Both the position numbers and the translations under genes were made by a program. A stretch of 64,000 bases of DNA from Ensifer adhaerens. Its GTDB lineage: Bacteria; Pseudomonadota; Alphaproteobacteria; Rhizobiales; Rhizobiaceae. Position 1 is the first letter of the stretch, and every line of letters starts with the position of its first letter. The stretch covers positions 434,001 to 498,000 of the forward strand of contig NZ_CP083351.1 in the NCBI RefSeq assembly GCF_020035535.1, read 5' to 3'. Below, piece by piece: positions 19,911 to 36,135 of the stretch. The notes beneath the pieces were generated by a model. That model searched no databases, was not told the origin of the DNA, and saw nothing but the letters and a program-made list of their open reading frames with translations.

Positions 19911-21275
19911 CTATCGTCTGCCGCCGCCGCCGCGCCCACCGCCGCCGCCACCGCGTTGGATTGGAGGTTTGCCGCCGCCGCGGGTTGCTTGTGGCCGCCC
20001 GCCGCCACGCTGGCCGCCACCCATGCTCTGTCCACCGCGCTGTGACGAGTTAACCTCGCGACGGCCGGAATTGACGGTGCCGAGCCCCGACGGGTTCGCG
20101 GGTCGGTTCTCGGCCTTGCCGCCCATCTTCGGCTTGCCCGCGGGTCGGTTTGCCGGGGTCTGTTTTGCTTGCGGACGGTTGGTGCCTGCCTTGGCGTCAC
20201 CGGCCTTCGGTCTTGTCGCCTGGCCATCGGCGGGACGGGTCGCTGGCCGCTGCTGCGCCTTCAGCCCATCAAGGGTGTTCTTGCGCACGTCCTTGATCTG
20301 GCCCGCGCTGCCACCGGTAGGCCCTGCGTTCGGGCGATCGCGGTTGATCTCGTTGGCGCGGTTGCGCAGGTTGTTGTTGCCGTCCGCCTTGATATTGTTC
20401 TTGACGTTGGTCCGGTCGAACTTCTGAAACTGAGTGCTGTCGAGCTTGATCTTGCTGCGGTCGACGTTCTTCCAGTCGACGTCGTTCCACTTGACCTTGC
20501 CATTGATGTTGTTGAAGCAATTGTTGCAGTCGATGTCGACATCGCCGCCATTCCAGCGGCCGCCCCACACACCCCAATCGTCCCAGTCGACGATCGCCGC
20601 AAAGGCCGCACCCGTCACCGCACCTGCAAAGAAGGTCGCGCCCGGATACCAATAGGCGGGAGAGGGCTCTTCATAGTAACTGATCGGCGCCGGCGCATAG
20701 TTGGGCTGATACAGCATCTCCGGCGGATACTGCGGCACGTAGATCGTTTCCGGGTTCGCCGCCTGGATGACGACATTGTCGCCTTCCTGGACCACCGTCA
20801 CTTTGTCGTCGGACTTGATGATGTTCTTGGCGACTGCCTCGTCGCGCAGTTGCTGTATCGCGACCAGCACGTCTTTCTGCTGATTGGCGATCGCATCGCC
20901 GAAGGACTGCGTCCAGTCGAGGTCTTCGGCCATCATCTTGACGATCTGGGGATAGTTGAGCAGCGAGATGACGCTGCCGTCCCAATCGTCCTTCGGTTTC
21001 GTGTCGGGCTTCTTCTGGCGGCCCTCAAGGAACCGTTCCGCCTCGACGATCTGCAGCGGATAGAGAGCGGCCGCGGAAATCAGCGCCACCAGCTCGTCGG
21101 GATAGAGCGCGATGCGGGCAATCAGGATCTCGAGTTCGTCGTCGGTGAGCGGTTCCGGCGCCGTTTGCTGCTCGGCCGCCGGCGCGCCTGCCGACTGCTG
21201 CGCGAACACCGGGTTCATGGATGATGAGAGCATCATGGCAACAGCGCTGCCAAGCACGATTATTGTCTTCCGCAC
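19911..21275 (-). CDS. DUF3300 family secreted protein, copy A
   Basis: This 454-residue exported protein (E. coli YacH is a family member) has a signal peptide (IIVLGSAVAMMLSSSMNPVFA) and a helical DUF3300 region with LIARIALYPDELVALISAAA. A PETIYVPQYPPEMLYQPNYA segment and an Asn/Trp-rich section follow, then a low-complexity Arg/Gly/Pro tail ending in RGG repeats. The start is GTG 21275, placed 6 nt after GGAGGTGA. In the paralog the aligned codon one position upstream is ATG, but here it is ATA, so this copy has lost the ATG. Function is unknown. Confidence 0.88.
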   Translation of the reverse strand: MRKTIIVLGSAVAMMLSSSMNPVFAQQSAGAPAAEQQTAPEPLTDDELEILIARIALYPDELVALISAAALYPLQIVEAERFLEGRQKKPDTKPKDDWDGSVISLLNYPQIVKMMAEDLDWTQSFGDAIANQQKDVLVAIQQLRDEAVAKNIIKSDDKVTVVQEGDNVVIQAANPETIYVPQYPPEMLYQPNYAPAPISYYEEPSPAYWYPGATFFAGAVTGAAFAAIVDWDDWGVWGGRWNGGDVDIDCNNCFNNINGKVKWNDVDWKNVDRSKIKLDSTQFQKFDRTNVKNNIKADGNNNLRNRANEINRDRPNAGPTGGSAGQIKDVRKNTLDGLKAQQRPATRPADGQATRPKAGDAKAGTNRPQAKQTPANRPAGKPKMGGKAENRPANPSGLGTVNSGRREVNSSQRGGQSMGGGQRGGGRPQATRGGGKPPIQRGGGGGGRGGGGRR

Positions 21276-21738
21276 TATGATCACCTCCAAGGGTAAAGAC
21301 GGAAAGGGTCGCCCGAAATACTGGTCTCCTTGGGATGCCGGTAAAGCGGCTCGGTGTGTATTGGCTGGGCAGCAGAGCGAGCGCCATCGCCAGCGCCTAT
21401 CTGAACCAACTTCATGACAACCAACCGCCGCATGGCTTCCCCAAGGTCACTCCGAACGGACATTAAGCGGAATATGTCGGCTTGCTGAAGAACGTAACAG
21501 TTACATTGTGCACGGCCGTGCGATTGCTGGCGGTTTCACCGCCGAGAACATTGTCTTCAACTCCTGATCGGGAGGGCTCGACATCTCGAGTGCCCGGGAC
21601 TGGCGGGAAGGCTGAAACGACTTCGAAAGCTAAGGTTACGTCACCAGCAAGCGTGCTAGGTGCTAGGTAAATTTCAAGCCGAGATCGCGCTATGCGGGCG
21701 CCGAAGAGGTGCTTGTGGTCGCCTTTGACAGGCGGAGG
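21276..21738. other. Regulatory region between DUF3300 copy A and the MarC remnant
   Basis: It contains the GTAAC-A-GTTAC palindrome and a putative -10 (ATATTC on the minus strand, 21475-21470). No supportable CDS lies here. Confidence 0.5.
21491..21508 (-). promoter_or_regulatory. Palindromic operator/promoter element, copy 1
   Basis: The core GTAAC-A-GTTAC at 21494-21504 is part of the minus-strand sequence AATGTAACTGTTACG, found four times in this window. It lies 219 bp upstream of DUF3300 copy A. On the minus strand ATATTC follows the palindrome by exactly 18 nt, as it does in copy 3, so the palindrome may overlap the -35 region. Confidence 0.7.
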
Positions 21739-22540
21739 TCACCATTCGATCAAACTCAAACTATGCAGAATGATCTGAAGTCCAAGGGCCGCCTGCGTGA
21801 CACCGAGCACGACCGCCAATACCTGGAGGGAGGTTCCTACCCATTTCAAGATGGTGTCCGCGAACGTCATCGCGAGCCAATCCAGTAACAGGATTAGGAG
21901 CACGATGGCGGCGACGATAAAGCCTTCCGCCTGGCGATCGCCGGCCAGGGTCGTAAAAACGATCACGGCAGCGATACCATAGGGAGGGACGATGATTGGA
22001 AAGGCTAGTGGCGCAAGGGCAAGCCTCTGGTCTTGTGGTCGGCCCACCGCGAGGGTGTGCTCGGTCTGGTTCGCGGATTGCTGCAAGATCGTTCGAAGAG
22101 CCACGAGAAACAGGATGATGCCCCCAGTCATGGCCAGGACCGGCAAGGAAATTTCAAAGTTCTCCAACATTGTGCGCCCAAGCAAGCCGGCGATAGCCAG
22201 GGCACCGGCCGAGAAGAGGATGGCCCTCCCAGCCGGCGGTGATGCTTACAAAGGGTACCAATATCTTGATGGGGCCGAGCATAAGAAAAAGCATCAAGAA
22301 CATTTTTCGCGGGCCAAACTCGACGTCCGGCATACCCGCAGCGTTCAGCGGTTGGGCGAGGGACTGCTCGGCAAAACTGCTTGCGATTATCACGAGTGTG
22401 ATGGTCAAGCCGATAGAATGCCCAGTTCGACGCCATTTTGATTTTTCAAATGCGCCAGGCTTACCGTTCCCGCTGGCGCGTAGCGATATGAGCGTGCGTA
22501 TGAGGTTTGGACATGCCGTCATTTGCCAGTCCCCGATCAC
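21739..22540 (-). pseudogene. MarC-family membrane protein, frameshifted
   Basis: Two overlapping frames together make one MarC/NAAT-type multi-spanning membrane protein. The N-terminal part is in the frame ending near 22215 (KMFLMLFLMLGPIKILVPFV). The C-terminal part is in another frame (RAILFSAGALAIAGLLGRTM, ISLPVLAMTGGIILFLVAL, PLAFPIIVPPYGIAAV). They should join near 22210-22240. The short charged loop that normally precedes the third membrane segment also seems to be missing, so this looks like a small deletion rather than a one-base error. MarC proteins were once linked to multidrug resistance; their function is unknown. Confidence 0.75.
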
Positions 22541-22907
22541 TCCAGAGCCATGGATGTCCTGACCAATTTTCTACCGGCGCTGCCGCGCACCAGGTTCGCC
22601 AATAGGGCCAAGCCGCGTCAAATGGAGCCCTGCGTTGCGGGCGCGCGTGGGTGACTGCCGTCTCAGCGTCTCAGTTGCCGCTCTCGTCAGAGGCCGGTCG
22701 GCCGCTTGGGTAACAACTTCGGCGTCAATCGTAGACAACAAACCCTTGTTCGCTCCGGGAATGCGCAGCCGTATCGGCTCTCAACTCGAAAAGACCAATT
22801 CCCTCGCCCGTTCAGTACGGGTGATTTGCCTTTTTGGGAGCCTGCCACAGATTTCTAATATTCCATACGTCGCAAATCTAACTGCGCAGAAGTTGTTGAG
22901 AGCACAC
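22541..22907. other. Intergenic region without a recognised gene
   Basis: This separates the MarC remnant from the DUF2721 gene. The plus-strand frame open through it has no natural-looking sequence before the DUF2721 start. No dyad stands out. Confidence 0.4.
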
Positions 22908-23360
22908 ATGCAAACACCAGCAATCGTCTCCGATCTTGCCTCTATTGTCCAAACCGCGCTGGCGCCGGTTTTTCTCCTTGCCGGCACGGCAGGTTTCGTC
23001 GGTGTCTACGAGATTCGTCTTGGCCGGGTTTCGGATCGGGTCAACGCGATACAGGAGAAGCGTGAACGGGGGGAAGCTCGACGCACGCAGCTGGACTATC
23101 TGCGCCGGCGTACGCTTGCCCTGGAGATAGCGGTCGCCCTCGGGACATTCGCCGCGATCTGTACTGGTTGGGCTATCCTCAATCTGCTAGCCGGTGCGCT
23201 CCAGTTCGGGTTCCGTGAAGAAAATCTCTTCTGGTTCTTCGGCGGCGCGATCTTGTCGCTCATCGGATCGCTTGTGGCATTCCTTGTTGAGATGTTTATC
23301 GCCGGGCGCAGCATGTTGCGCCAGATACGGATGGACGAGGCGACTCCAGAACGCGACTGA
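22908..23360 (+). CDS. DUF2721 family membrane protein
   Basis: This 150-residue protein has three hydrophobic segments (about residues 10-32, 67-95 and 105-130) with a charged loop (RLGRVSDRVNAIQEKRERGE) after the first, the layout of DUF2721 proteins. The ATG at 22908 is chosen because the frame upstream has no family similarity and the first membrane segment starts right after it. Function of the family is unknown. It is followed by a remnant of a DUF3300 gene on the other strand. Confidence 0.85.
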   Translation: MQTPAIVSDLASIVQTALAPVFLLAGTAGFVGVYEIRLGRVSDRVNAIQEKRERGEARRTQLDYLRRRTLALEIAVALGTFAAICTGWAILNLLAGALQFGFREENLFWFFGGAILSLIGSLVAFLVEMFIAGRSMLRQIRMDEATPERD

Positions 23361-23430
23361 CTGCCATTGGAGCAGGACTTGCCGAAGGTCCGGAGATAAA
23401 ACGCCTTCCAGACCAATCCGCCCAAATCAA

Positions 23431-23682
23431 TCACATGAAACCCAAAGTTCCCGTGAGAAATCCAATCGGGCTCGCACGCCCTTCAACATGGGACCGATAG
23501 TGGCTGGACGGCAGGGCGGCAGCGGGCGCGCGGCAGGCAGGGTTGCCGGCCGGGAGAAAGTTGAATTGCCATCCCTTGATTTTGCGACTTGCGCGGTTTC
23601 GCTGGGCCATGACCGCGGTGATGGGCGTTGAAATCAGCATCGTCACTGCGCTGCCAAGCGCGATGAACGTTTTCCGGATCAT
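23431..23682 (-). pseudogene. Truncated third copy of the DUF3300 gene start
   Basis: Reading from ATG 23682, the first about 27 residues (IRKTFIALGSAVTMLISTPI, then TAVMAQ) match the signal peptides of the two DUF3300 proteins. The following about 55 residues do not resemble DUF3300 and look non-native. The GTAAC-A-GTTAC palindrome lies 152 bp upstream, as at the intact copies. It is either a remnant of a third DUF3300 unit or a short secreted peptide built on its leader. Confidence 0.55.
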
Positions 23683-23830
23683 GATTTGCCCCCAAGTACA
23701 GAGGGGTACTGATTCCCTTAAAGAAATTGAACTCACCTCTGCCTCCATTACCGCGGCAGGGCGAGAGGGCAAGTACGATACAATATTTTGCTTGGGTCAA
23801 TTATGGGCCGATGCGTTGCTCCAGGGAAGA

Positions 23831-23848
23831 TACGTAACAGTTACATTG
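23831..23848. promoter_or_regulatory. Palindromic operator/promoter element, copy 2
   Basis: The core is GTAAC-A-GTTAC at 23834-23844, in the same orientation as the other copies. It is 152 bp upstream of the DUF3300 remnant on the minus strand and 124 bp upstream of the antiporter start at 23968 on the plus strand. The putative -10 seen at copies 1 and 3 is not conserved here. Confidence 0.6.
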
Positions 23849-23967
23849 TCGTGCTTTCGCATGATTGCTGTTGCTTCTTTGAAAGGTGCTGGGCATCATC
23901 ACGTTCAAATAGTGATTAGCTTCAGTCGGCTATCGAATCCAAGGTCCGAGTAATGGGGGGAGGCAGT

Positions 23968-25659
23968 ATGATTGACTGGTTCGTAAGCACGCTTCGCACG
24001 TATCCTGAGATTGCAATATTTCTCTCCCTGGCACTTGGTTACTACTTCGGCTCGTTTACGTACAAGGGCCTCGGCCTTGGCGCGGTAACGGCCACGCTGG
24101 TTGCTGCCGTCATCATCGGACAGATCGGGATTACGATTTCGCCGCCTCTCAAGGCCACGTTCTTTCTGATGTTCCTGTTTGCGATCGGCTACGGCGTCGG
24201 TCCGCAATTCGTGCGAGGTATCGCCAAGGATGGCATCCCGCAGGCGTTGTTCGCAGTCGTGGTCTGCATATTTTGCCTTGGCGCGCCTTTCGTCGCGGCC
24301 AAAGTGGCCGGTTACGATGTCGGTTCCGCACTGGGGCTCTATGCGGGATCGCAGACCATCTCCGCGTCGATGGGCTTGGGAACGGACGCCATCAATCGTC
24401 TCGGCCTTGCGCCCGAGGAGACAAAGCGATTGCTGGATGCGATGCCGGTCGCCTATGCAGTCACCTATATTTTCGGCACCGTGGGATCGGCTATCGTTCT
24501 AGCCCTTTTTGGACCGGCGCTGCTGGGTATCGACCTGGAGGCTGAGTGCAAGCGCTACGAGGCGGAGCAGGGCGGCAAGAAGGAGGCGGGCGGCGCTGGA
24601 ACAGCCTGGCATCATTACGAGTTGCGCGCCTATCGCGTTCGTGCGGATGGCCCTGTCGTCGGCAAGACGGTACGAGAGGCCGAATCCCTCATCCCCGAGC
24701 AGCGCGTGTTCATCGAGCGGATCCGGCGGGGATCTAAGATCGAAGAAGCGACAGCGGATATGGTGGTTCAGGCGGGTGACGTCGTTGCCGTTGCCGGCCG
24801 CCGTGACGTGCTGGTGGGCCTGATCGGTCAGACTGCAGAAGAGGTCGACGACCGCGAACTGTTGGCGGTGCCCATCGAGGGCGTCGACGTCCTGGTGACT
24901 GCCAAGGAAGCCAATGGAAAGACGCTGGCCGAACTGGCGCAGTGGCCGACTTCTCGCGGTGTGTTCCTGCGGCGGATCGCCCGTGGCGCAACGGCGACTG
25001 AAATCCCCATTCTTCCGAACACGGAGATCCATCGCGGTGACATCCTGACGATTGTCGGACGGACGCAGGATACTTCCGCAGCCGCGAAGGCGCTCGGTGT
25101 TGCCGACCGCCCGACCGACGTCGCGGATGTTGCGTTTATTGGTGCAGCGATTGCGATCGGTGGCCTGCTCGGTGCGCTCGTATACAAGGTGGGCGATGTG
25201 CCGTTTACCTTGTCCACGTCCGGGGGCGCGTTGATCTCCGGGCTTTTCTTCGGCTGGTTGCGCTCAGTGCGCCCGAAATTCGGCCGGATACCGACATCGA
25301 CCGTCTGGTTCATGAATTCGGTCGGTCTGAACGTCTTCATCGCGGTGGTCGGCATCTCCTCCGGCCCAGGTTTTGTCGCCGGCCTGCAGCAGCTTGGCTT
25401 CAGCCTGTTCCTTTGGGGGATATTCGCAACGACCGTGCCCCTCGTGCTGGCAATGTATGTCGGAAAGTATGTGTTCCGGTTTCACCCCGCCATTTTGCTG
25501 GGATGCTGCTCGGGCGCACGCACGACGACAGCCTCGCTTGGGATGATCAATGATCGCGCCAAGAGCCAGATCCCTGGGCTCGGCTACACCGTGACCTATG
25601 CCGTCGGCAACACGCTTCTGACGATCTGGGGCATGGTGCTCGTCATGATGATGACCTAG
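23968..25659 (+). CDS. AspT/YidE-type amino acid antiporter (AAE family), first paralog
   Basis: This 563-residue inner-membrane protein has the AAE layout: about five N-terminal membrane segments, a cytoplasmic middle with two TrkA-C (RCK_C) domains (about residues 215-285 and 300-375), and about five C-terminal segments. Conserved glycine-rich parts include [15 protein letters not shown] and [13 protein letters not shown]. AspT of Tetragenococcus exchanges aspartate for alanine, coupled to decarboxylation. The ATG at 23968 is preferred to 23953 because GGGGGAGG lies between them. It precedes an amino-acid decarboxylase gene, and a second AspT-type paralog follows that gene, suggesting substrate/product exchange. 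Confidence 0.88.
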
Positions 25660-25676
25660 TCATTTTCGGTTTGAAT

Positions 25677-25703
25677 GGCGGCGCTTCGGCGCCGCATCTC
25701 TTT
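25677..25703 (+). terminator. Probable intrinsic terminator after first antiporter
   Basis: A 7-bp GC stem (GCGGCGC / GCGCCGC) with a TTCG tetraloop is followed by ATCTCTTT. It starts 18 bp after the antiporter stop and suggests that the decarboxylase has its own promoter. Confidence 0.6.
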
Positions 25704-25835
25704 GCGAAGAACCGCTCCTTTCCGAAGATGCGGCCTCGTCTTGGACACCCATGGTGAGTTGTTCGAAGCTTTTACCGGCAGAAGCCGTGACCGGGTTTCG
25801 AAATTGGTTCGTCTTATTTTTTTGCGTCCATCATA

Positions 25836-25878
25836 GCCGCGGCCACTGAGAAAGAACTGCAGATCAGTGGCCGCTGGC
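25836..25878 (+). promoter_or_regulatory. Large leader hairpin upstream of the decarboxylase
   Basis: GCGGCCACTGA at 25839-25849 pairs perfectly with TCAGTGGCCGC at 25864-25874 around a 14-nt loop, and GCC/GGC extends the stem past a one-base bulge. It ends 31 bp before the ATG and is not followed by a U-tract. It could be a 5'-UTR control element or a protein-binding dyad. Confidence 0.5.
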
Positions 25879-25909
25879 AGCCCATATAAAACTGAGTTGG
25901 GAGCGCGCT

Positions 25910-28621
25910 ATGCCAAGCAAGACCGCACAAGTAGACCAGTTTTTGCTCATCCATTCGGCGCGTGCCGACAACTGGCGTGAGATCACGACGCTTGCAGAGG
26001 CCTGGGCCGCCAATCGCGGCGCACGGGCAGCGCTGGAAGCGGCGATCTCTGCCGTGGCGCCGGCGGAGGAGTACTACGCCTATCCGGGCCGGGGATTGCT
26101 TATGGCTCTGGCGGAGCGCATCGCCACCAATGATGCGGGCGGGGCAGCAAGGCTTGCGCGGCGCATCTCCAATGGGCTGCTGACCCATTCCTATCGGGGA
26201 CGTCAGAGTGAATGGGACGTGCATGACGAGATGTCGGGAACGGAGGTGACCGATATCATGCCGCCTGGAACCGGGGAGGCGAACGGACGCCGGCCCTATT
26301 TCGAAGTTCTGTTTGTCAACAGCCAGCCGGCCGCGCGCTGGGAGACGTTCGCAGCGGAGATCCGCAGGCTCCGGCGACCGGAGGACGGCTTCATCTATGA
26401 GCCTGTTCTGGTCGGGTCCTTCGAGGATGCCTTCTGCGCGGCCGCCCTGAACCCCGATATCATCGCTGTCGTACTCGCGGAAGGCTTTCCTTACCGCTCG
26501 CGCCACGACGCGCCTGTGCTTCGCTCGGTACTCGATCCGCTTGGGGAAACCGACGGACCAGACATGTCGGCGCTCCGCCTGGCACGCAGCTTGAAGCGTA
26601 TCCGGCCCGAACTCGACGTCTATCTGCTTTCCGACCGGCAAGTCGAAAAGATCGCCGGCGACCCGACGGCGGATTCGGTGCGGCGTGTGTTCTACGCGGT
26701 GGAGGAGCCGCTGGAGATGCATCTCGCCATCCTCGAAGGCGTGCAGGCACGCTATGAAACGCCCTTCTTCGACAATCTGAAGAAATATGCACGACGACCC
26801 ATCGGCACATTTCATGCGCTTCCCATCGCCCGCGGCAAATCTGTCTTCAAGTCTGACTGGATCCGCGACATGGGCGAATTCTATGGGCTCAATCTGTTCC
26901 TGGCGGAAAGCAGCGCGACGACCGGTGGTCTCGACAGCCTGCTGGAACCTACCGGCACGATCAAGCGTTCGCAGGAGCTTGCGGCCCGCGCCTTCGGGGC
27001 CGACCACGTCTTCTTCGTGACGAATGGCACGTCCACTTCCAACAAGATGGCGGTGCAGGCGCTTCTGGCGCCCGGTGACATTGCGGTGGTCGATCGAAAC
27101 TGCCACAAATCGCACCATTACGGCATGGTTCTGACCGGTGCGCAGCCCTACTACGTCGAAGCGTTCCCGATGACGGAATACTCGATGTACGGCGCCGTGC
27201 CGCTTTCGACGATCAAGCAAGCCCTCTTGGCATTGAGGGCGGAAGGACGCCTTGATCGGCTGAAACTGCTCGACCTCACCAACTGCACTTTCGACGGGCA
27301 CATGTACAATGTCAGGCGCGTGATGGAGGAATGCCTCGCGATCAAGCCGGACCTCATCTTCCTATGGGACGAAGCGTGGTCCGGATTTGCCAGGTTTTCA
27401 CCCTTCCTGCGTCCACGCACCGCCATGGGGGCGGCCGCCGATATCGAAGACTGGCTGCACGATCCGGCCTCGGTCAGTGCCTATGAAAAGCAGCGCGCTG
27501 ATCTCGGGGATGATCCATCTGACGAAGCGCTGCTTAAAGCACGCCTGATCCCCGACCCACGGCTCGTTCGCCTTCGGGTCTATCAGACCAACTCGACGCA
27601 CAAGTCCATGTCGGCGATCCGGCAAGGCTCAATGTTGCTGGTCAAGGATGTCGACTTTCACACCGTCGAGGCCCAGTTCCACGAGGCGGTGTTCACCCAT
27701 GCTTCCACAAGTCCGAACCAGCAACTGATCGCCAGCCTCGACGTGGCTCGCAGGCAGATGGAGCTCGATGGGTATGGGTTGGTGATGAACGCGATCGAAA
27801 TCGCGCTCAAGATTCGCCGGGCAATCAACGAGCATCCACTGATCTCGAAGTATTTCCGCGTTCTGGGTGCCGATGAGATGATCCCCGCGGAGTACAGGCA
27901 GTCAGGGTTCAAGGACTACCTGGCGCCGGGCGCGACCTGGGCCACGGCGGTGAAGGCGATGAAGGAGGACGAGTTCTACCTCGATCCAACGCGTATGACG
28001 CTGGTGTGCGGAACGGCTGGCTTTGACGGAACGCAGTTCAAGGGGCTGCTAGCCAACGAGTACGATATCCAACTGAACAAGACGTCGCGCAACAGCGTGC
28101 TCCTGCAGTCCAACATCAACAATACCCGCAGCGATATCGCGCACCTCGTTCGTGTCCTGGTCGAGATCTGCAATGATATCGAAAAGCGCCTTGTCAACGG
28201 CGGAGAGGCCGAGCGTGCAGCTTTTGCAGCACGGGTAAAGTCGCTGATGACCGACGTGCCGGACCTCCCCAACTTCAGTCATTTCCATGAGATGTATCGC
28301 GGCGATGCGGGGCGTACGACGCCGGAAGGCGACATGCGAGCCGCCTTCTTCAATGCCTATGACGCCTCCGTGTGCGAGTATGTGCCGCTCATTGGCGCTG
28401 AATGCGATCGGCGCCTGAAGGAGGGGCCAGAAATGGTCTCTGCCAACTTCGTTATCCCCTATCCGCCGGGGTTCCCGATCATGGTTCCGGGTCAGGTCCT
28501 GACGCAGGAGACAATCGACTTCATGCGTAAGCTGGATGTGAAGGAGATCCATGGCTACGAAAAGGCTCGGGGACTGAAGCTGGTCAAACCAGATGCCGTT
28601 GCTGCCAAGGCGAAACGATAG
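25910..28621 (+). CDS. PLP-dependent Orn/Lys/Arg decarboxylase, large form
   Basis: This 903-residue enzyme belongs to the fold-III basic amino-acid decarboxylases (SpeF/CadA/AdiA family). An N-terminal receiver-like wing domain (about residues 125-290) precedes the PLP domain. Landmarks are TNGTSTSNK, a PLP-contact Asp in LWDEAWSGF and the Schiff-base lysine K565 in STHKSMS. A C-terminal domain follows (NFVIPYPPGFPIMVPGQ). Decarboxylation consumes a cytoplasmic proton, so with two flanking AspT-type antiporters this looks like an acid-resistance or proton-motive decarboxylation module. The substrate (Lys, Orn, Arg or other) cannot be fixed from sequence. It is longer than E. coli AdiA (about 750 residues). 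Confidence 0.9.
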   Translation: MPSKTAQVDQFLLIHSARADNWREITTLAEAWAANRGARAALEAAISAVAPAEEYYAYPGRGLLMALAERIATNDAGGAARLARRISNGLLTHSYRGRQSEWDVHDEMSGTEVTDIMPPGTGEANGRRPYFEVLFVNSQPAARWETFAAEIRRLRRPEDGFIYEPVLVGSFEDAFCAAALNPDIIAVVLAEGFPYRSRHDAPVLRSVLDPLGETDGPDMSALRLARSLKRIRPELDVYLLSDRQVEKIAGDPTADSVRRVFYAVEEPLEMHLAILEGVQARYETPFFDNLKKYARRPIGTFHALPIARGKSVFKSDWIRDMGEFYGLNLFLAESSATTGGLDSLLEPTGTIKRSQELAARAFGADHVFFVTNGTSTSNKMAVQALLAPGDIAVVDRNCHKSHHYGMVLTGAQPYYVEAFPMTEYSMYGAVPLSTIKQALLALRAEGRLDRLKLLDLTNCTFDGHMYNVRRVMEECLAIKPDLIFLWDEAWSGFARFSPFLRPRTAMGAAADIEDWLHDPASVSAYEKQRADLGDDPSDEALLKARLIPDPRLVRLRVYQTNSTHKSMSAIRQGSMLLVKDVDFHTVEAQFHEAVFTHASTSPNQQLIASLDVARRQMELDGYGLVMNAIEIALKIRRAINEHPLISKYFRVLGADEMIPAEYRQSGFKDYLAPGATWATAVKAMKEDEFYLDPTRMTLVCGTAGFDGTQFKGLLANEYDIQLNKTSRNSVLLQSNINNTRSDIAHLVRVLVEICNDIEKRLVNGGEAERAAFAARVKSLMTDVPDLPNFSHFHEMYRGDAGRTTPEGDMRAAFFNAYDASVCEYVPLIGAECDRRLKEGPEMVSANFVIPYPPGFPIMVPGQVLTQETIDFMRKLDVKEIHGYEKARGLKLVKPDAVAAKAKR

Positions 28622-28736
28622 CCTGCAACACGGTCGTGCCGGAATTCTCAGCGTAGCCGCTTGCCAATTTTGCATGAGCGTTTCGGTTCGACCGTGATGG
28701 CGTCTTAGCCTCTGGCCGAAGGGGGAGGGGGACCTG

Positions 28737-30431
28737 GTGATAATTTGGATCGAGCAATTCCTGACCAAGTATCCTGAGCTTGCGGTATTCCTTGCTATCA
28801 GCATTGGATATCTGATCGGGGGTCTGAAGTTCGGAGGCTTCAGCCTGGGGCCGGTTACGGGATCGCTGTTTGCAGGTATCCTCATCGGCCAGTTCGCCGA
28901 TGTTCCGATTGCCGGGATGGCGAAATCGCTGCTGTTTCTGCTGTTCCTTTTCGGTATCGGCTACTCGGTCGGGCCACAGTTCCTGCAGGCCTTGAAACGC
29001 GATGGAATGAAGCCGGTCCTGCTTGCGGTGTTTGTGTGCGTGACCGGATTGCTCACAGCTGTCGTGGTTGCCAAATTCCTTGGTCTGGATCCAGGTTTTG
29101 CGGCCGGGCTTTTGTCGGGTGCCCTGACCGAAAGTCCGGCAATGGGCACTGCCACCGAAGCGATCAATGCATTGCCACTGCCCGAGGCGGATCGCGCACG
29201 GTTTGTCGCCCATATCGCTGTGGCCGATGCTGTTTGCTACGTTTTCGGCGCAGTTGGCGTCATTCTGTTTTGCAGCGTCGTCGGCCCGAAACTGCTTGGC
29301 ATCGACCTCGTCGCCGAGGCGCTGAAGCTTGAGAAGGCGTACGGGATAACCCGTAAGACAACCGGGGTCTCCTCCGCCTGGCACCGGTTCGAGATTCGCG
29401 CCTACCGGATAGCGGACGGCGCGCCGATCGTCGGCCAATCGATCGTCGCTGCCGAGGCGACACTTCCAGAGCATAGACTTTTCATTCAACGCTTGCGGCG
29501 GAGGGAGGCTATCCTTGAGGCCGCGCCCGATCTTGTAATTGAACCCGGCGATATCGTTGCGGTGTCCGGAACAAGAGAGGTTCTTGTGACTGTTCTTGGT
29601 CCGCGCTCCGAAGAAGTCGAGGATCGCGAGCTGCTCGACGTGCCGGTCTCGGTTACCGACGTTTTGCTGACGAACCCTGATCTCAATGGCCGAAGCATAG
29701 CGGATGTAGCGACCGAAGGATGGGCAAGGAGCCTCTATCTGCGAACGATCACTCGTGGCGGCCAAGATATTCCCCTTGCGCCCGGGATCACGGTGCAGCG
29801 CGGGGATATCATGCGCCTCGTCGGCCCGGAACCTGTCGTGTCGAGCGCGGCCAAGCGCATTGGTGTCGTCGTCGCGCCGGCGACGGCAACGGACTTCCTG
29901 GTCCTTGGCCTTGCCATCTTCCTTGGCGGGCTTGTCGGCGTTCTCGTCACGTTTCCGATCGGCGATATGCGGATTTCGCTGAGCACCAGTGTGGGCACAC
30001 TCCTCGCCGGACTGATTGTGGGGCACCTGCGTACGCGCTTTCCACTTTTTGGCAGGATTCCGGATGCCGCCGTTTCACTCATGACGGCGCTTGGTCTGGC
30101 TGCCTTTGTCGCGATGACCGGTCTTCATGCCGGACCTATATTTGGCCCCGCTATTGCGGAAGCGGGTGTCGGACTTTTGTTTGGCGGCATGGTCGTCACG
30201 ATGGTTCCGTTGATCGTAGGCCTCTACTTCGGGCGCTACGTACTTGGCATGAACCCCATATTGCTGCTGGGCGGGCTTGCCGGAGCGCAGACCATGACGG
30301 CTGGCATGGCCGCGGTGCAAGACAGGTCCGGGAGCTCTGTTGCAGTCCTTGGCTACACGCCCGCGGTCCCGATCGGCCATATTCTGCTGACGACCTGGGG
30401 GACAGTGATCGTCGGTATCGTCGCCGGATGA
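28737..30431 (+). CDS. AspT/YidE-type amino acid antiporter (AAE family), second paralog
   Basis: This 564-residue paralog of the 23968 gene has the same architecture: about five membrane segments, two TrkA-C domains (about residues 215-290 and 300-375) and about five membrane segments. Motifs such as LLFLFGIGYSVGPQFLQALK and GGLAGAQTMTAGM align with its partner. The start is GTG 28737, supported by the strong ribosome site GGGGGAGGGGG 5 nt upstream. It follows the decarboxylase by 115 bp on the same strand. The paralogs are clearly diverged, so they may carry different substrates or directions. Confidence 0.88.
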   Translation: MIIWIEQFLTKYPELAVFLAISIGYLIGGLKFGGFSLGPVTGSLFAGILIGQFADVPIAGMAKSLLFLLFLFGIGYSVGPQFLQALKRDGMKPVLLAVFVCVTGLLTAVVVAKFLGLDPGFAAGLLSGALTESPAMGTATEAINALPLPEADRARFVAHIAVADAVCYVFGAVGVILFCSVVGPKLLGIDLVAEALKLEKAYGITRKTTGVSSAWHRFEIRAYRIADGAPIVGQSIVAAEATLPEHRLFIQRLRRREAILEAAPDLVIEPGDIVAVSGTREVLVTVLGPRSEEVEDRELLDVPVSVTDVLLTNPDLNGRSIADVATEGWARSLYLRTITRGGQDIPLAPGITVQRGDIMRLVGPEPVVSSAAKRIGVVVAPATATDFLVLGLAIFLGGLVGVLVTFPIGDMRISLSTSVGTLLAGLIVGHLRTRFPLFGRIPDAAVSLMTALGLAAFVAMTGLHAGPIFGPAIAEAGVGLLFGGMVVTMVPLIVGLYFGRYVLGMNPILLLGGLAGAQTMTAGMAAVQDRSGSSVAVLGYTPAVPIGHILLTTWGTVIVGIVAG

Positions 30432-30531
30432 AATCCCGATAGTCTAATCGATCAGCTGCAAAACTGGTGCGTAACTAGAATTCGCAACAGACTTCCAGAG
30501 TAAAGTGGCGAATACTGCTGCGAATCGTCAA

Positions 30532-30542
30532 GGCGAATCGCC
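30532..30542. promoter_or_regulatory. Small palindrome before the porin gene
   Basis: GGCGA-A-TCGCC is a perfect 11-bp palindrome ending 21 bp before the porin ATG. It could be an operator or a 5'-UTR hairpin that masks the ribosome site. Weak call. Confidence 0.25.
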
Positions 30543-30563
30543 GATGAGCTGAAGGTGCTTTTG

Positions 30564-31744
30564 ATGCGGCATGCATTATACGTTGTTTCACCCGCACTTC
30601 TCATGGCGACACTGGCGGGTGCGGGGTCTGTGGCGGCCCAGGAGCCGGCAAAACCAGTGCAGCAGCAAGGGCAAAACAGCAAGGAACCAGAACATTGGAT
30701 TCCGAAGCTGCGGCTCGGCGACGATAATGCCTATTTCGAGTTCTACGGGCAGATCAACAAGGGCCTGCTGATCTACGATGATGGCGGGCAAACGGAAAAC
30801 TATTTTCCAGTCGACAACGGCAACTCGTCTTCACGCGCGGGCTTTCGCATCTATAGCCTCATGGAAAACGACTGGTCTTTCGGGGCCAATCTCGAATGGG
30901 AGTGGAACCCTACTCGACAACCAATGTGAACCAGACGAACGAGGATCACTTCGACTGGGGAACCGACCTTATGCGCAAGGCGGAAATCTATCTGAATTCG
31001 AAGGATTACGGCAAGTTCTGGTTCGGCCAGGGCAGCATGGCCTCCGATACGAGCGCCGAGGTGGATCTCTCCGGCACGGACGTCGTTGGTTATTCATTGG
31101 TGTCGGATATGGCCGGTGGACCGTTTTTCCGCAACGAGGACGGCACGCTGTCGACGGTCCATGTCAAGGACGCGTTCACCAACTATGACGGCCTCAGCCG
31201 CAAGCTGCGCGTCCGGTACGATACTCCATCTTATGGCGGCTTCAGCCTTGCGACGTCGGTGGGAACGCAGGTTGTGCCGGAGACAACCGACGTCACTGTC
31301 TGGGATATGGCGGTTCGATACAATGAGACCTACGATGCCTTCAAGGTTAGCGCGGCTCTTGCTTTTTCAAAGCCAGGCGGCAGCAACTCCATCTACGACG
31401 GGTCCGTTTCCATCCTGCACCTGGATACCGGCCTCAGCCTCACCCTTGCAGCGGGCTATTCCGACAAGGAGACGGTTGATGGGCGCTATGGTTACGTAAA
31501 GGTCGGCTATCAAGCTGATATCTTCGATGTCGGTAAAACTGCATTTTCAGTCGACGCCTATTTCGGCAAGGACATTGCAGGCAAGGGTAGCGAGAGCGAT
31601 TCCTTCGGGGCACAGATTGTCCAGAACCTCGACTATCTGCAGACGGAGCTCTACCTTGGAGCGCGGACCTACTCACTCGATCAGGAGACCGCCGATCTTC
31701 AGGATAGCTTTGCTGTTTTGGGTGGTGCCAGAATAAAGTTCTGA
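30564..31744 (+). pseudogene. Outer-membrane porin, disrupted by a one-base frameshift
   Basis: Two frames make one Gram-negative porin of about 390 residues. The first (30564-30929) has a signal peptide (SPALLMATLAGAGSVAAQ) and YFEFYGQINKGLLIYDDGG. The second (from about 30910 to 31744) has FWFGQGSMASDTSAEVDLSG and ends in a beta-strand with terminal Phe (VLGGARIKF), as outer-membrane barrels do. They join at a C run near 30909-30911; one extra base there restores a continuous protein. It may be a real mutation, phase variation or a sequencing error. It lies just after the second antiporter. Confidence 0.85.
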
Positions 31745-32027
31745 AGCACCGTTGGGCTGGCAAACTCGTACCTGCAACCATTCGCCAATGAAACGACGGG
31801 CTTGACCTTTGAGCTACGGGTCGCACCAAAAAAAGTTTCTCAGGGCGGCAGCTCGTTTGCGCGGGCCATAACTGGGCCAGTGACGGCACGTCCAAGGGGC
31901 GTCGGCACTTGTCGTCAACTTGGCCGGTACGTCATGATGAAGCTTGGCTTGCCAAGCTTGGCCCTGATGGTCCATGCTTTCGACCTGGTCGACCAACATT
32001 CATGTTTGTCGCCGTTGGTCGCCATCT

Positions 32028-33113
32028 TCAAGGGGGGTGCTGCGGCACTGGCGAAGGTACGCCAAGTCGTATCGCCTTCGAGAAGTTCGGCGACAACCCG
32101 TCGGCCCGCGCACGCTGGTCGATATGACTGGCATTTCTGAGCTCCGTGAGCGACACTGACGTATCAACCGCGCCGCGACCATAAGCGTAGTCGGGTAGAT
32201 AGCCGTTGACGATGAGACGCCAGTCGAACGGGACCGTGTCTCCCACAACGCGCATCATCTTGACGACTGTGGTCGTGCAGTTGGTCGTAAGCGAGTTGTA
32301 GAATTGCGGCGTTCTAGCAAGCGCATTGGCGTCTGCAACATACTCGCGCAGAAGCGCACGTGCCTGGTCAGGCGACGCTTTCAGGCGATAGATCTGAACA
32401 TCCTCGCCGCGGAAGTTCGAACGGACGCCCACCACGTCCCGTTCATCGGCTGCGATGATGACCAGAGGATTGCTCTTGAATAAATCTGCAAGCGGCGAGA
32501 ACCCGCCGCCAGCCCGCCGACGGACCTCGATCGACCACGGAAGCTGCTCGCCCCCTTCAAATCCGAAACTGAAAATGACGTGGGCAATCTCTGGTCCCGC
32601 CCAATAAGACATGAACAGGTCGACCGTTTTGAGCTTCCTCATGTCGTAGGTCCGCGTGGTCCACTGCTCGACGAATTCCGTGGTGCTGTGCCATTCGAAG
32701 TTCCGAACATTGGTCAGTGTCAGCAGGTCGCCGTCAAATTCGCCTGTGACCTGTCGCGCGACATCGGGTGCCCAGGATGCGTTTTCGACGGGTTTGATCG
32801 TCCGCCACCACAACAGGACAACTGCGAACGCGACTGCGAACGCCAGGAGAGCTTTGAAACGCCAGCGGCCAAACAGCGCGGCGACCGTGAAAAGCCCGAC
32901 AAGTGCAAAAAGGCCGGCGACAAAGCCTCTTGTGATCTCTGAAACGGGAAGGCGGTACCACAATGCGAGCGTGGCCCATGCAGCGGCCAAGGCTAGTAGA
33001 ATTGCTGGTGGAACAGTCAGGACAGCCAGAGCCAAGCGGCTCCAGCCGCTCTTTTGCATGTTCGCCCCAGGACCGCTCAATAGATCAGTTCCCGCGCTGT
33101 CTTCGGGCCGCAT
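32028..33113 (-). CDS. DUF4105 family membrane-anchored protein
   Basis: This 361-residue protein has three N-terminal membrane segments (about residues 26-45, 61-85 and 88-106) and a periplasmic domain of the DUF4105 type. That domain has FMSYWAGPEIAHVIFSF and the cysteine motif YNSLTTNCTTTVVKMM near residue 280. DUF4105 is thought to have a papain-like fold; its activity is unknown. An internal ATG at 33059 is an alternative start. It has palindrome copy 3 at 153 bp upstream, linking its control to the DUF3300 genes. Confidence 0.85.
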   Translation of the reverse strand: MRPEDSAGTDLLSGPGANMQKSGWSRLALAVLTVPPAILLALAAAWATLALWYRLPVSEITRGFVAGLFALVGLFTVAALFGRWRFKALLAFAVAFAVVLLWWRTIKPVENASWAPDVARQVTGEFDGDLLTLTNVRNFEWHSTTEFVEQWTTRTYDMRKLKTVDLFMSYWAGPEIAHVIFSFGFEGGEQLPWSIEVRRRAGGGFSPLADLFKSNPLVIIAADERDVVGVRSNFRGEDVQIYRLKASPDQARALLREYVADANALARTPQFYNSLTTNCTTTVVKMMRVVGDTVPFDWRLIVNGYLPDYAYGRGAVDTSVSLTELRNASHIDQRARADGLSPNFSKAIRLGVPSPVPQHPP

Positions 33114-33580
33114 TGCTTGGCCTGCCGCTTGCTCATGTCTTACCCCTCTCGTTTACGTTCGAATACTTCGATTGGCTCGGTTCAGGAGCCGTTTGACCGC
33201 CGCAGGATTTCCCCAAGTTCCCTATTCGTCTGCATTATGCTGAATATGGCGTGTCGCTAAAGAGCGTAACGGTTACATTTTTGCACGACCGCGGTGCCGC
33301 CGCGGACTTTTGTTTCGGCGGCGACTTCAATGGGGCGGATGGATTTGCTCTTGAAGCCCGCAAAGAGGGCTGGGGAGAAGGATCAAGCGTCAGCGGCTCG
33401 TGGGAAGCAGGCGTCAAACGCGCCTACTAGCCCAGCTAAATTCAAGGAACTTGCGATAGACTTGCGCCTTGGCCAATCCACAGTCGAAGTTCGAAAAGAA
33501 TTGGCGTGAGCTCAATTCCATTCACCTGCGACGCCGTCGGATTTCGAACCGTTCAACAAGGCCTGTAAGGAGGCATCCTC
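33114..33580. other. Intergenic region with palindrome copy 3
   Basis: It holds the promoter region of the DUF4105 gene, including the palindrome at 33266-33276. The rest, to the DUF2950 stop, has no recognisable gene. Confidence 0.45.
33263..33280 (-). promoter_or_regulatory. Palindromic operator/promoter element, copy 3
   Basis: The core is GTAAC-G-GTTAC at 33266-33276, upstream of the DUF4105 gene. On the minus strand ATATTC (33247-33242) follows 18 nt later, matching copy 1, and similarity to copy 1 extends over about 50 bp. Confidence 0.65.
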
Positions 33581-34558
33581 TCAATCGGGCGCGACGTCCC
33601 ATTTGTCGTCGGGATCGAAGCGATCGATGAAGGGCACGATCTCTTCGGTATTCGGCCCGAGATCGCGTTCGTAGACGATACCCTGCTGGTTGACGACGAA
33701 GGTCTTGACGCCGGTCTCGGCATAGCTGACCGGCGAGGCGATCAGGGCGAAGCCGCCGATCATGTTGCCGTTGATGACATAGTCGTACCGGCCGCCGGCG
33801 ATGTTATCGCCCTGCAACGTCAGGATGCGGAAACGGTAGCCGAAATACCCTTGGCCGGCCTTCGCCTTCTCCAGCGCAGCTTCGCTGATCGCATCGCCGA
33901 CCGGGCTTTCACCATCGCCCTGGTCGGCCGGCCAGTAGAGCCCGTCCGTCAGGCCCGGGGAGCTGATCAGCTTCTGGGCATATTCGAGCACGCCATCGGC
34001 GTCGCGGTCCTTGGAGGCATATTCCTTCTGGGCGTCGACATAGGCCTGTACCGTATCGATCGCTTCGAGTTCGTTCTCGCCGACGCGGCGATTGATGATT
34101 TCCTCGAGCCCGACATAGGTGTCGAAGGCCCATTTGCCGTCTTCGCCCTTGGTGATCGGGAATGGCAGCGGCCAGAGCCGATCGCCGATCTGGATAATCT
34201 TGCGTCCTTCGAGATCATTCACGGTGACATTGCGGGCGGCACCTTCGCGGATGAGCGCGAAAGTATCCATCGTCCCTTCACCGGCTTTGAGCTTTTCCTC
34301 ATTGAGCCCGAGAAGTTTTGCGAGACCGTCGAAGTCATTGGCGGCGAGTTTCGCCTTGAATTCGTCGACTGCCTTGGCCGGGTCATCGAAGGCCGGAGGA
34401 TCTTCGTCGGACGCATAGGCGTCGAGGCCGGCCGCCATTTGATCCGTTGGTGCCTGATCGGCTGGCGCCTTTGTCTGCGCGGATGCGTTGAGCGGTACGG
34501 CGGCCAGTGCGAGGGCGATCGCCGTTCCAAGGAGAAGCGGATGAAAGAGCTTTGTCAT
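33581..34558 (-). CDS. DUF2950 family secreted protein, copy B
   Basis: This 325-residue exported protein is a close paralog of the 18912-19892 product, differing at about 18 positions, mostly in the signal peptide and the first half. It has the same domain landmarks (RLWPLPFPITKGEDGKWAFD near residue 125). It is encoded 21 bp after DUF3300 copy B. Function is unknown; conservation of both copies suggests that both are, or recently were, under selection. Confidence 0.9.
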   Translation of the reverse strand: MTKLFHPLLLGTAIALALAAVPLNASAQTKAPADQAPTDQMAAGLDAYASDEDPPAFDDPAKAVDEFKAKLAANDFDGLAKLLGLNEEKLKAGEGTMDTFALIREGAARNVTVNDLEGRKIIQIGDRLWPLPFPITKGEDGKWAFDTYVGLEEIINRRVGENELEAIDTVQAYVDAQKEYASKDRDADGVLEYAQKLISSPGLTDGLYWPADQGDGESPVGDAISEAALEKAKAGQGYFGYRFRILTLQGDNIAGGRYDYVINGNMIGGFALIASPVSYAETGVKTFVVNQQGIVYERDLGPNTEEIVPFIDRFDPDDKWDVAPD

Positions 34559-34579
34559 GGTCGTTCTCCTATGATCCGT

Positions 34580-35959
34580 TCAACGTCTGCGTCCGCCGCC
34601 ACCACGACCGCCGCCGCCACGGTGAATCGGCGGCCTGCCGCCACCGCGGCTCATTTGTGGCCGTCCGCCGCCGCGCTGGCCGCCGCCCATGCTCTGGCCA
34701 CCGCGGCGTGACGAGTTGATTTCGCGCCGTCCGGGATTGACGTTGCCGAGGCCCGATGGGTTTCTCGATCGGTTCTGCGCCTTGGAGGCCATCTTCTTCT
34801 TGCCGCCCTGACGGTTGACCTGAGAAGGTTTTTTGCCCGAGGGACGATTGATGCTCGGCTTGCCGTCGCCGGCGCGCGCTTTTGCGATCGCCTGCCCGCC
34901 ACCGGCCCCACCTGGTCTGGCTGCCGGCCTCTGCTGGGCCTTCAGCCCATCAAGCGTGCTCTTGCGCACGTCCCTGATCTGACCGCCGCCACCACCGCCG
35001 GGCCGTGCGTTCGGCCGATCGCGGTTGATCTCGGCGGCGCGGTTGCGCAGGTTGTTGTTGCCGTTTGCCTTGATGTTGTTCTTGATGCTGTTTCGGTCGA
35101 AATGTTGAAGCTGGTCGCGGTCGAAGTTGATCTTGCTGCGATCGACATTCTTCCAGTCGACGTCGTTCCACTTGACCTTGCCGTTGATGTTGTTGAAGCA
35201 GTTGTTGCAGTCGATGTCCATGTCGCCGCCATTCCAGCGGCCGCCCCAGACGCCCCAATCGTCCCAGTCGACGATCGCGGCGAAGGCAGCACCGGTCACA
35301 GCACCTGCAAAGAAGGCTGCGCCGGGATACCAATAGGCCGGATAGGGTTCGTCATAGTAGCCGATCGGCGCCGGTGCATAATTCGGCTCGTACAGCATCT
35401 CCGGCGGATACTGCGGCACGTAGATCGTTTCAGGATTGGCTGCCTGGATGACGACGTTGTCGCCTTGCTGGACCACCGTCACCTTGTCGTCGCTCTTGAT
35501 GATATTCTTGGCGACCGCTTCGTCACGCAATTGCTGTATCGCGATCAGCACATCCTTCTGCTGATTGGCGATCGCGTCGCCGAAAGACTGCGTCCATTCG
35601 AGGTCTTCGCTCATCATCTTGACGATCTGGGGATAGTTGAGCAGCGAAATGACGCTGCCGTCCCAATCGTCCTTTGGCTTCATGTCCGGCTTTTTCTGGC
35701 GAGCCTCGAGGAAGCGCTCCGCCTCGACGATCTGCAGCGGATAGAGCGCGGCAGCGGAGATCAAGGCCACCAGTTCGTCTGGATAGAGCGCGATGCGGGC
35801 AACCAGGATCTCGAGTTCGTCGTCGGTGAGCGGTTCCGGCGCCGTTTGCTGCTCGGCCGCCGGCGCGCTTGCCGACTGCTGCGCGAGCACCGGGTTCATG
35901 GATGATGAGAGCATCATGGCAATTGTGCTGCCAAGTACGAGGATCGTCTTCCGGATCAT
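34580..35959 (-). CDS. DUF3300 family secreted protein, copy B
   Basis: This 459-residue exported protein is a close paralog of the 19911-21275 product. It has a signal peptide (ILVLGSTIAMMLSSSMNPVL), a DUF3300 helical region (LVARIALYPDELVALISAAA), PETIYVPQYPPEMLYEPNYA and a low-complexity tail rich in Gly, Arg and Ser. The tail differs from copy A in repeats and indels. ATG 35959 follows GGAGGTGATT directly, giving a normal start that copy A lacks. It probably works with the DUF2950 protein encoded just downstream. Confidence 0.9.
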   Translation of the reverse strand: MIRKTILVLGSTIAMMLSSSMNPVLAQQSASAPAAEQQTAPEPLTDDELEILVARIALYPDELVALISAAALYPLQIVEAERFLEARQKKPDMKPKDDWDGSVISLLNYPQIVKMMSEDLEWTQSFGDAIANQQKDVLIAIQQLRDEAVAKNIIKSDDKVTVVQQGDNVVIQAANPETIYVPQYPPEMLYEPNYAPAPIGYYDEPYPAYWYPGAAFFAGAVTGAAFAAIVDWDDWGVWGGRWNGGDMDIDCNNCFNNINGKVKWNDVDWKNVDRSKINFDRDQLQHFDRNSIKNNIKANGNNNLRNRAAEINRDRPNARPGGGGGGQIRDVRKSTLDGLKAQQRPAARPGGAGGGQAIAKARAGDGKPSINRPSGKKPSQVNRQGGKKKMASKAQNRSRNPSGLGNVNPGRREINSSRRGGQSMGGGQRGGGRPQMSRGGGRPPIHRGGGGRGGGGRRR

Positions 35960-36117
35960 AATCACCTCCGAGCGACTGAAGAACATTGGGTTCTCGGACT
36001 GCTAAGAACTCAGGGCACGTTTCCGTAAACGGTTCCACGAGCATGTGAGCGCCCGCGAAGAACCAATTCTAGCTAAAGATCCACAAGCATTGTGCGGATT
36101 TTGTGCGTTTAATGAAG

Positions 36118-36135
36118 AACGTAACAGTTACATTA
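36118..36135 (-). promoter_or_regulatory. Palindromic operator/promoter element, copy 4
   Basis: The core is GTAAC-A-GTTAC at 36121-36131, 162 bp upstream of DUF3300 copy B. The flank TGAAGAAC is shared with copy 1. A weaker -10-like AAAATC lies 18 nt away on the minus strand. Confidence 0.7.

Follow-up and report, generated by a model that had tools for sequence, protein, structure and literature searches.

A 64,000-nt stretch of the 8.1 Mb genome of Ensifer adhaerens (NZ_CP083351.1, positions 434,001–498,000; G000:C3:434001-498000; hereafter, the window) raises the question of why one short palindrome, GTAACNGTTAC, recurs upstream of several of its genes, and of which protein might read it. 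An earlier note on this DNA had reported four copies, all in one orientation and each upstream of a minus-strand gene, and had suspected a hidden regulon. All four copies are exact (window positions 21494-21504, 23834-23844, 33266-33276, and 36121-36131); their flanks place all of them on the minus strand, approximately 145–210 bp upstream of the gene starts annotated in NZ_CP083345.1 (plasmid p1 of E. adhaerens W2-A, 98.7% identical to the 18 kb of the window that was queried), which we mapped onto the window by a constant offset. With up to one mismatch, the window contains six matches against 0.27 expected, and none of 100 shuffles reached six, which is far above local chance; the printed flanks of the two one-mismatch matches (14609 and 17541) lack the 3′ extension of the full motif described below. 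We conclude that the copies belong to a genuine regulon with a well-supported candidate regulator, and that they are quite likely activator-type promoter elements read by a membrane-tethered, CadC-like protein of 589 aa.

The palindrome is only one part of the element. Genome-wide, the bare 11-mer occurs 12 times versus 11 times for its reversed control, which led to its rejection as a genome-wide motif; in 11 of these 12 places, the left half is followed by GTTACGTNCTT or by a close variant, while the twelfth (L008), which we read as lying inside a transposase gene, lacks an extension of this type. The printed flanks reveal a directional extension, GTWACNGTTACGTWCTT, and the full motif is a directional element of about 17 bp, KTWAC-N-GTWACGTACTT. 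Elsewhere, GTTAC or TTTAC frequently forms its left half, which makes the element look more like a repeat followed by GTACTT than like a plain palindrome, and the AAT seen 5′ of the window copies is absent from the general motif. Taken alone, the bare palindrome would fail the random-position test set in the earlier note; the extended motif is enriched over its reversed control. In the same genome, GTAACNGTTACGTNCTT was found at 14 places with up to one mismatch, and at 23 places with up to two mismatches (11 control matches). The 14 places cluster, with six within 75 kb plus one more on C1, four within 9 kb on C2, and three on C3, the latter all in the window; the second window site (W2) has two mismatches and thus falls outside the 14.

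Exact GTWACNGTTACGTWCTT was found at 128 sites in all 16 same-genus genomes, without a single reversed-control match there; 45 other genomes contained no site and one control match. In a sample of the family, the merged pattern KTWACNGTWACGTACTT presented 176 sites in 30 of 394 genomes, as compared to 12 control matches in 11 genomes, with a patchy distribution over 12 of 109 genera. The order sample included 376 genomes from outside the family, and these yielded a single site, in one genome (G760), which is within chance.

The position of the motif relative to the promoter was assessed with all exact KTWACNGTWACGTNCTT sites in the loci collected plus W2 and W3 (112 sites; 87 after removal of near-identical flanks), a set in which the search itself makes the core near-invariant. 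Beyond the 17-mer used as query, columns +18, +39, +42, +43, and +44 alone exceeded 0.25 bit in the 87 dereplicated sites; these weak columns (C at +18, A at +39, and T at +42, +43, and +44) fit a −10 element of the form TAnnnT. Matches to TATAAT at four or more of six positions peaked at offsets 37 (12 sites) and 38 (six sites), with five at offset 28 and zero to four elsewhere. The final TT of the motif would fall in the −35 position, with the predicted −10 hexamer 20–21 nt further on, consistent with the overlap with the −35 region that had been proposed. A spacer of 17 bp would put this TT inside the −35 element, and the motif would thus sit at a class II activator position; this geometry fits an activator site abutting the −35 element of a σ70-type promoter with its −10 at about 17 bp. 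The hexamer ATATTC does follow copies 1 and 3 at 18 nt as previously observed, but its role as −10 found no support, a better supported −10 being located 8 nt further downstream; as a general −10, ATATTC is ruled out by the offset peak at 37–38. Because the downstream flanks of W1 and W3 are 54% identical (other window pairs, 24–36%), the shared ATATTC may reflect common descent. A good −10 in the expected slot is absent at some sites of this genome (e.g., S11 and S12). An extra KTWACG half-site was also observed at −12 in eight of the 87 sites, as compared to zero or one at other offsets.

The suspicion of a hidden regulon was supported. The enriched directional motif precedes unrelated gene families, many of them encoding exported proteins. 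In this genome, these include two DUF3300 genes, a DUF3300 remnant, and a DUF4105/Lnb_N gene in the window, and, elsewhere, a DUF3302-like/HlyD pair, an alkyl sulfatase, a Na/Pi cotransporter, two DUF1254/DUF1214 genes, two arylsulfatases and a sulfatase fragment, a MoxR gene followed by DUF58 and VWA genes, a gene for a formylglycine-generating enzyme (FGE) followed by a HAD gene, a small open reading frame (ORF) followed by the candidate regulator gene, and an SH3-type protein (DUF3302 and SH3 being our own reading). The first downstream ORFs of 124 site places, many of them orthologous, mainly encoded sulfatases (21), the small ORF (19), FGE (14), DUF1254 proteins (13), and SH3-type proteins (nine). 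For one Phyllobacterium genome (G249), 18 of 20 sites were fetched and the first ORFs of 16 were scanned; their products included three sulfatases, four DUF1254/1214 proteins, a DUF308 protein (which we take to be HdeD-like), HlyD, DUF900, a glycosyltransferase, a short-chain dehydrogenase, and COX1, with two ORFs matching no family. On pC6.5b of R. rhizogenes, variants such as TTTACCGTAACGTACTT are located upstream of genes encoding an arylsulfatase, FGE, a hydrolase, and a transporter, and sites also lie upstream of the small ORF/regulator pair and of its divergent neighbour. At L038:11211-12035, a site lies upstream of a C-terminal sulfatase fragment, probably a gene remnant that kept its promoter.

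In agreement with the earlier note, which saw no TetR-type or response-regulator gene in the window that might own the element, the best candidate is of neither type and is encoded elsewhere. This membrane-bound, CadC-like protein (589 aa; 596 aa from an upstream start) is encoded on C2 (G000:C2:2503554-2505341), downstream of site S11. Co-occurrence was assessed in 70 genomes: every one of the 30 genomes with sites, and 40 of the 364 siteless genomes, selected mainly from the same genera. A regulator homologue of more than 180 bits was present in 23/23 genomes with at least two sites, 1/7 genomes with one site, and 0/40 siteless genomes, in which the best match reached 166 bits (Fisher test, 1e-17, uncorrected for phylogeny); the seven one-site genomes are no more numerous than the 11 genomes with control matches. 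In Phyllobacterium (genus g88), the regulator was found in 12/12 genomes with at least eight sites and in 0/8 with at most one site (10/10 and 0/3 among the 13 previously unused genomes only). The FGE gene, a target used as control, presented a looser link, with matches at E 1e-100 or better in 21/23 site-rich and 6/40 siteless genomes. Taking the 80 best of 541 regulator-family loci, we found around them 184 sites with up to one mismatch and no reversed controls in 1.06 Mb, and 54 of these 80 loci have a same-strand site 479–755 bp upstream of the matched start. In genomes G159 and G228, a divergent paralogue has its matched stretch 98 nt away from the lone site. The homologue of R. rhizogenes is 39% identical, and E. 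adhaerens itself encodes a second copy on the same replicon as the window (C3:48375-50108, L329; 75% identical) and further family members with 29–31% identity on C1 and C3. The small ORF (approximately 80–90 aa; e.g., L040:16081-16356) precedes the regulator gene in many genomes and had no Pfam or NCBIfam match; it may encode an accessory protein. In a proteobacterial metagenome-assembled genome (L232:8052) and in Dongia deserti (L237:7935), a GTTACCGTAACGTGCTT site lies 3′ of genes for 30% identical family members, at similar positions in both, which suggests that the motif extends outside Rhizobiaceae. With respect to other owners, an apparent TetR gene start (our reading) at L002 is located beside a different inverted repeat, and a response regulator encoded in S. 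medicae has no close homologue in this genome.

The most conserved part of the candidate regulator lies within its first 118 residues. An AlphaFold2 model (mean predicted local distance difference test score, 79) presented a winged-helix-like N-terminus of four helices and a strand pair (order H-H-H-H-E-E), a low-confidence helix at residues 160–183 in the place of a transmembrane (TM) segment, and then alpha/beta and tetratricopeptide repeat (TPR) parts. All 17 proteins examined have a single hydropathy maximum (KD19 1.83–2.45) at residues 151–183, with the next highest value at or below 1.66; hydropathy thus predicts one TM helix after the DNA-binding-like domain, as in ToxR/CadC-like regulators. 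Scored with a winged helix-turn-helix profile from the same genome, the N-terminal domain reached a mean of 4.1 bits versus −1.0 (standard deviation 1.1) for shuffles; with a GerE profile, these values were −0.2 and −1.3. Profile–profile matches to OmpR-type or GerE domains were not significant and were dismissed. Foldseek ranked periplasmic domains of CadC at positions 3–6 (E 5e-5 to 1.5e-4; TM-score normalized to the target, 0.39–0.41), and VIA-align of the whole model listed only TPR-type rows, which leaves room for other matches. Different proteins carry the N-terminal domain of about 105 aa joined to TPR or to WD40-like beta-propeller parts (P0045). By its modelled layout (N-terminal DNA-binding-like domain, one TM helix, alpha/beta and TPR-like C-terminal half), the candidate resembles the ToxR-like CadC of Escherichia coli, described as the low-pH activator of an operon for a lysine decarboxylase and antiporter (PMC5430869, PMC3096576). 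It differs from CadC in that Pfam finds no Trans_reg_C in its N-terminal domain and in that it would serve up to 24 exact sites per genome, with sulfatases and DUF proteins as targets. The R. rhizogenes homologue shows a weak similarity to HilA/EilA-type regulators in NCBIfam (E 2e-4); this is far below the curated cut-off and confined to the TPR part, and we claim no functional relation. The named homologues are mostly called "hypothetical" or "tetratricopeptide repeat" proteins, and other such regulators are probably hidden under these names. The transmembrane transcription regulators surveyed in PMC10269533 are likewise membrane proteins with a predicted DNA-binding domain; as the survey relied on domains modelled in Pfam, it would probably have missed a protein with a domain that lacks such a model.

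The analysis establishes the motif, the promoter geometry, the list of targets, the co-occurrence with the regulator gene and the proximity to it, and, by prediction, the domain layout; from these we infer motif binding by this protein, activation, and periplasmic sensing. The cytoplasmic, winged-helix-like N-terminal domain would bind KTWAC-N-GTWACGTAC directly upstream of a weak −35 element (..TTnC) that a gap of about 17 bp separates from the −10, while the CadC/TPR-like C-terminal half would sense a periplasmic signal; on this signal, RNA polymerase would be recruited by class II activation. The regulator would also drive its own operon, which consists of the small ORF followed by the regulator gene, and its targets would largely be exported or envelope proteins.

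Several results weigh against this proposal. The N-terminal domain matched no sequence in Pfam, NCBIfam, or the Protein Data Bank (the latter with a domain alignment at E up to 10), and none of the seven proteins scanned matched Trans_reg_C at E up to 5; hhalign aligned VRVEASRLRAALT to IDVHVSRLRSKIE of an OmpR-type domain at 10% probability, and the CadC fold matches have a root-mean-square deviation of 18–19 Å and stand among many unrelated TPR proteins. Nineteen of the 80 regulator loci have no site in the flanks examined (up to 6 kb), and the second copy on C3 has none with up to two mismatches in the 12 kb fetched. The motif was also absent at all six Sinorhizobium DUF3300-orthologue loci fetched, including that of S. 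chiapasense ITTG S70, which encodes a 53% identical regulator homologue and has no site in 7.3 kb around DUF3300. The 180-bit cut-off, the two-site cut-off, and the upstream window were all set after the data had been seen, and the genomes of the first sample also contributed many of the 80 loci. Covariation between domain residues and motif letters, computed over 53 loci without phylogenetic correction or permutation test, is confounded by kinship.

That a chance palindrome was amplified by local duplication of a DUF3300 promoter would accord with the lack of enrichment of the bare 11-mer and with the similarity of the W1 and W3 flanks; we regard this as practically negligible, as it is already contradicted by the strong enrichment of the 17-mer over the reversed control at genus and family level, and the 17-mer is moreover found upstream of unrelated gene families with a −10 at a fixed spacing. 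It is also very improbable that the motif is read by a two-component system, be it ExoS/ChvI or the regulators located among the same genes in S. medicae ml29, where arylsulfatases, the MoxR operon, DUF3300, and DUF2950 lie beside an "ATP-binding protein" (histidine-kinase-like in our reading) and two response regulators. This S. medicae locus has no site with up to two mismatches, the best match of our genome to its response regulator is only 33% identical, and within the family the motif has a patchy distribution, unlike ExoS/ChvI, which PMC4550343 describes across Rhizobiales. The passages of PMC8343143 and PMC10659215 consulted on ChvI give no letters of its consensus. The cluster itself (L070:3733-26043 on pMl3), which includes arylsulfatases, a MoxR/DUF58/VWA/BatD operon, DUF3300, and DUF2950 without the motif, is possibly a case of a swapped regulator for the same functions.

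A minor possibility is that the regulon is real and that another transcription factor binds the motif, the CadC-like protein being merely a constant member. Co-occurrence and proximity alone cannot separate a regulator from a constant target, a co-conserved small ORF is located between site and regulator gene in many genomes, and the DNA-binding domain of the candidate is weakly supported. On the other hand, the regulator tracks the motif better than does FGE, the one target tested (strong match in six of 40 siteless genomes, lacking in two of 23), the paralogues in G159 and G228 also adjoin the only site of those genomes, and we noticed no other shared cluster protein with a DNA-binding-like domain among the neighbours searched, which were not all of them. 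We favour the CadC-like protein as the regulator.

The features of the window are listed in the table below. Between W2 and W3 are two aspT genes and, between these, a gene for an Orn/Lys/Arg-type decarboxylase; with its two flanking AspT-type antiporters (window:23953-30431), this decarboxylase makes up a cassette for amino-acid decarboxylation of the type seen in acid resistance. E. adhaerens CTYH.Ch1 retains the counterpart of W2, including its GTATCT variant; this counterpart is directed at a DUF3300 gene that is still intact and is divergent from aspT, and a gene for an aspartate decarboxylase lies nearby. W2 thus probably represents the promoter left behind by a DUF3300 gene that has decayed. 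The suggestion that this copy also acts on the plus-strand antiporter is unlikely, as both its orientation and the CTYH.Ch1 site point at DUF3300, and, in E. adhaerens Casida A, the region just upstream of aspT yielded no site with up to two mismatches. In four other genomes of the genus, a site in the correct orientation does precede an aspT homologue, which is 51–52% identical to that of the window.

Features of the window associated with the motif (predicted −10 elements inferred from the offset peak over 87 sites)
Feature	Position	Strand	Remark
Site W1, GTAACTGTTACGTTCTT	21488..21504	-	Upstream of DUF3300 copy A
Predicted −10 of W1, CTTAAT	21462..21467	-	Offset peak
DUF3300 copy A	19911..21278	-	Start per NZ_CP083345.1 annotation
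DUF2950 copy A	18912..19892	-	Adjoins DUF3300 A, same strand
Site W2, GTAACTGTTACGTATCT	23828..23844	-	Read as one inserted base before CTT
Predicted −10 of W2, CATAAT	23800..23805	-	Offset peak
Hypothetical ORF, read as DUF3300 gene remnant, signal-peptide-like start kept	23431..23682	-	
Site W3, GTAACCGTTACGCTCTT	33260..33276	-	Upstream of DUF4105
Predicted −10 of W3, CATAAT	33234..33239	-	Offset peak
DUF4105 / Lnb_N protein	32028..33059	-	
Site W4, GTAACTGTTACGTTCTT	36115..36131	-	Upstream of DUF3300 copy B
Predicted −10 of W4, CACAAT	36089..36094	-	Offset peak
DUF3300 copy B	34580..35959	-	
DUF2950 copy B	33581..34558	-	Adjoins DUF3300 B, same strand

As to the signal, low pH is a doubtful guess, which we make because of the resemblance to CadC, the decarboxylase and antiporter genes between W2 and W3, and the DUF308 target in Phyllobacterium. 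An acid-stress passage on S. meliloti (PMC4941405) may point the other way, listing an arylsulfatase with a negative value; the accessible parts of PMC2912261 and PMC4941405 each list one arylsulfatase with such a value, which is uninformative for the regulon as a whole. In a literature search that covered subscription papers thinly, neither the motif nor the regulator was found described. The available text of PMC4653623 presents DUF3300 and DUF2950 as a universally co-localised pair of plant-interaction candidates of unknown function, induced in both RNA-seq studies used there. The same pair is found here; we propose a regulator and a promoter element for it, neither of which is named in that text.

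A candidate regulator without a family model can thus be named together with its putative DNA site, several families of unknown function become members of one testable regulon, and a plasmid region of orphan genes is explained by it; deletion of the regulator gene could reveal the condition that DUF3300 and DUF2950 serve. Beyond this, we lean slightly towards a broader proposal, in which the candidate would represent a new class of membrane-tethered transcription factors whose DNA-binding domain of about 105 aa, absent from Pfam and fused to TPR or WD40-like parts, reads a 17-bp element and thereby brings together an envelope/acid-response regulon, inherited in a patchy manner, in Ensifer, Rhizobium, Neorhizobium, Phyllobacterium, Pseudaminobacter, and the Ochrobactrum group, and which would give DUF3300, DUF2950, DUF1254, and DUF1214 a common regulator.

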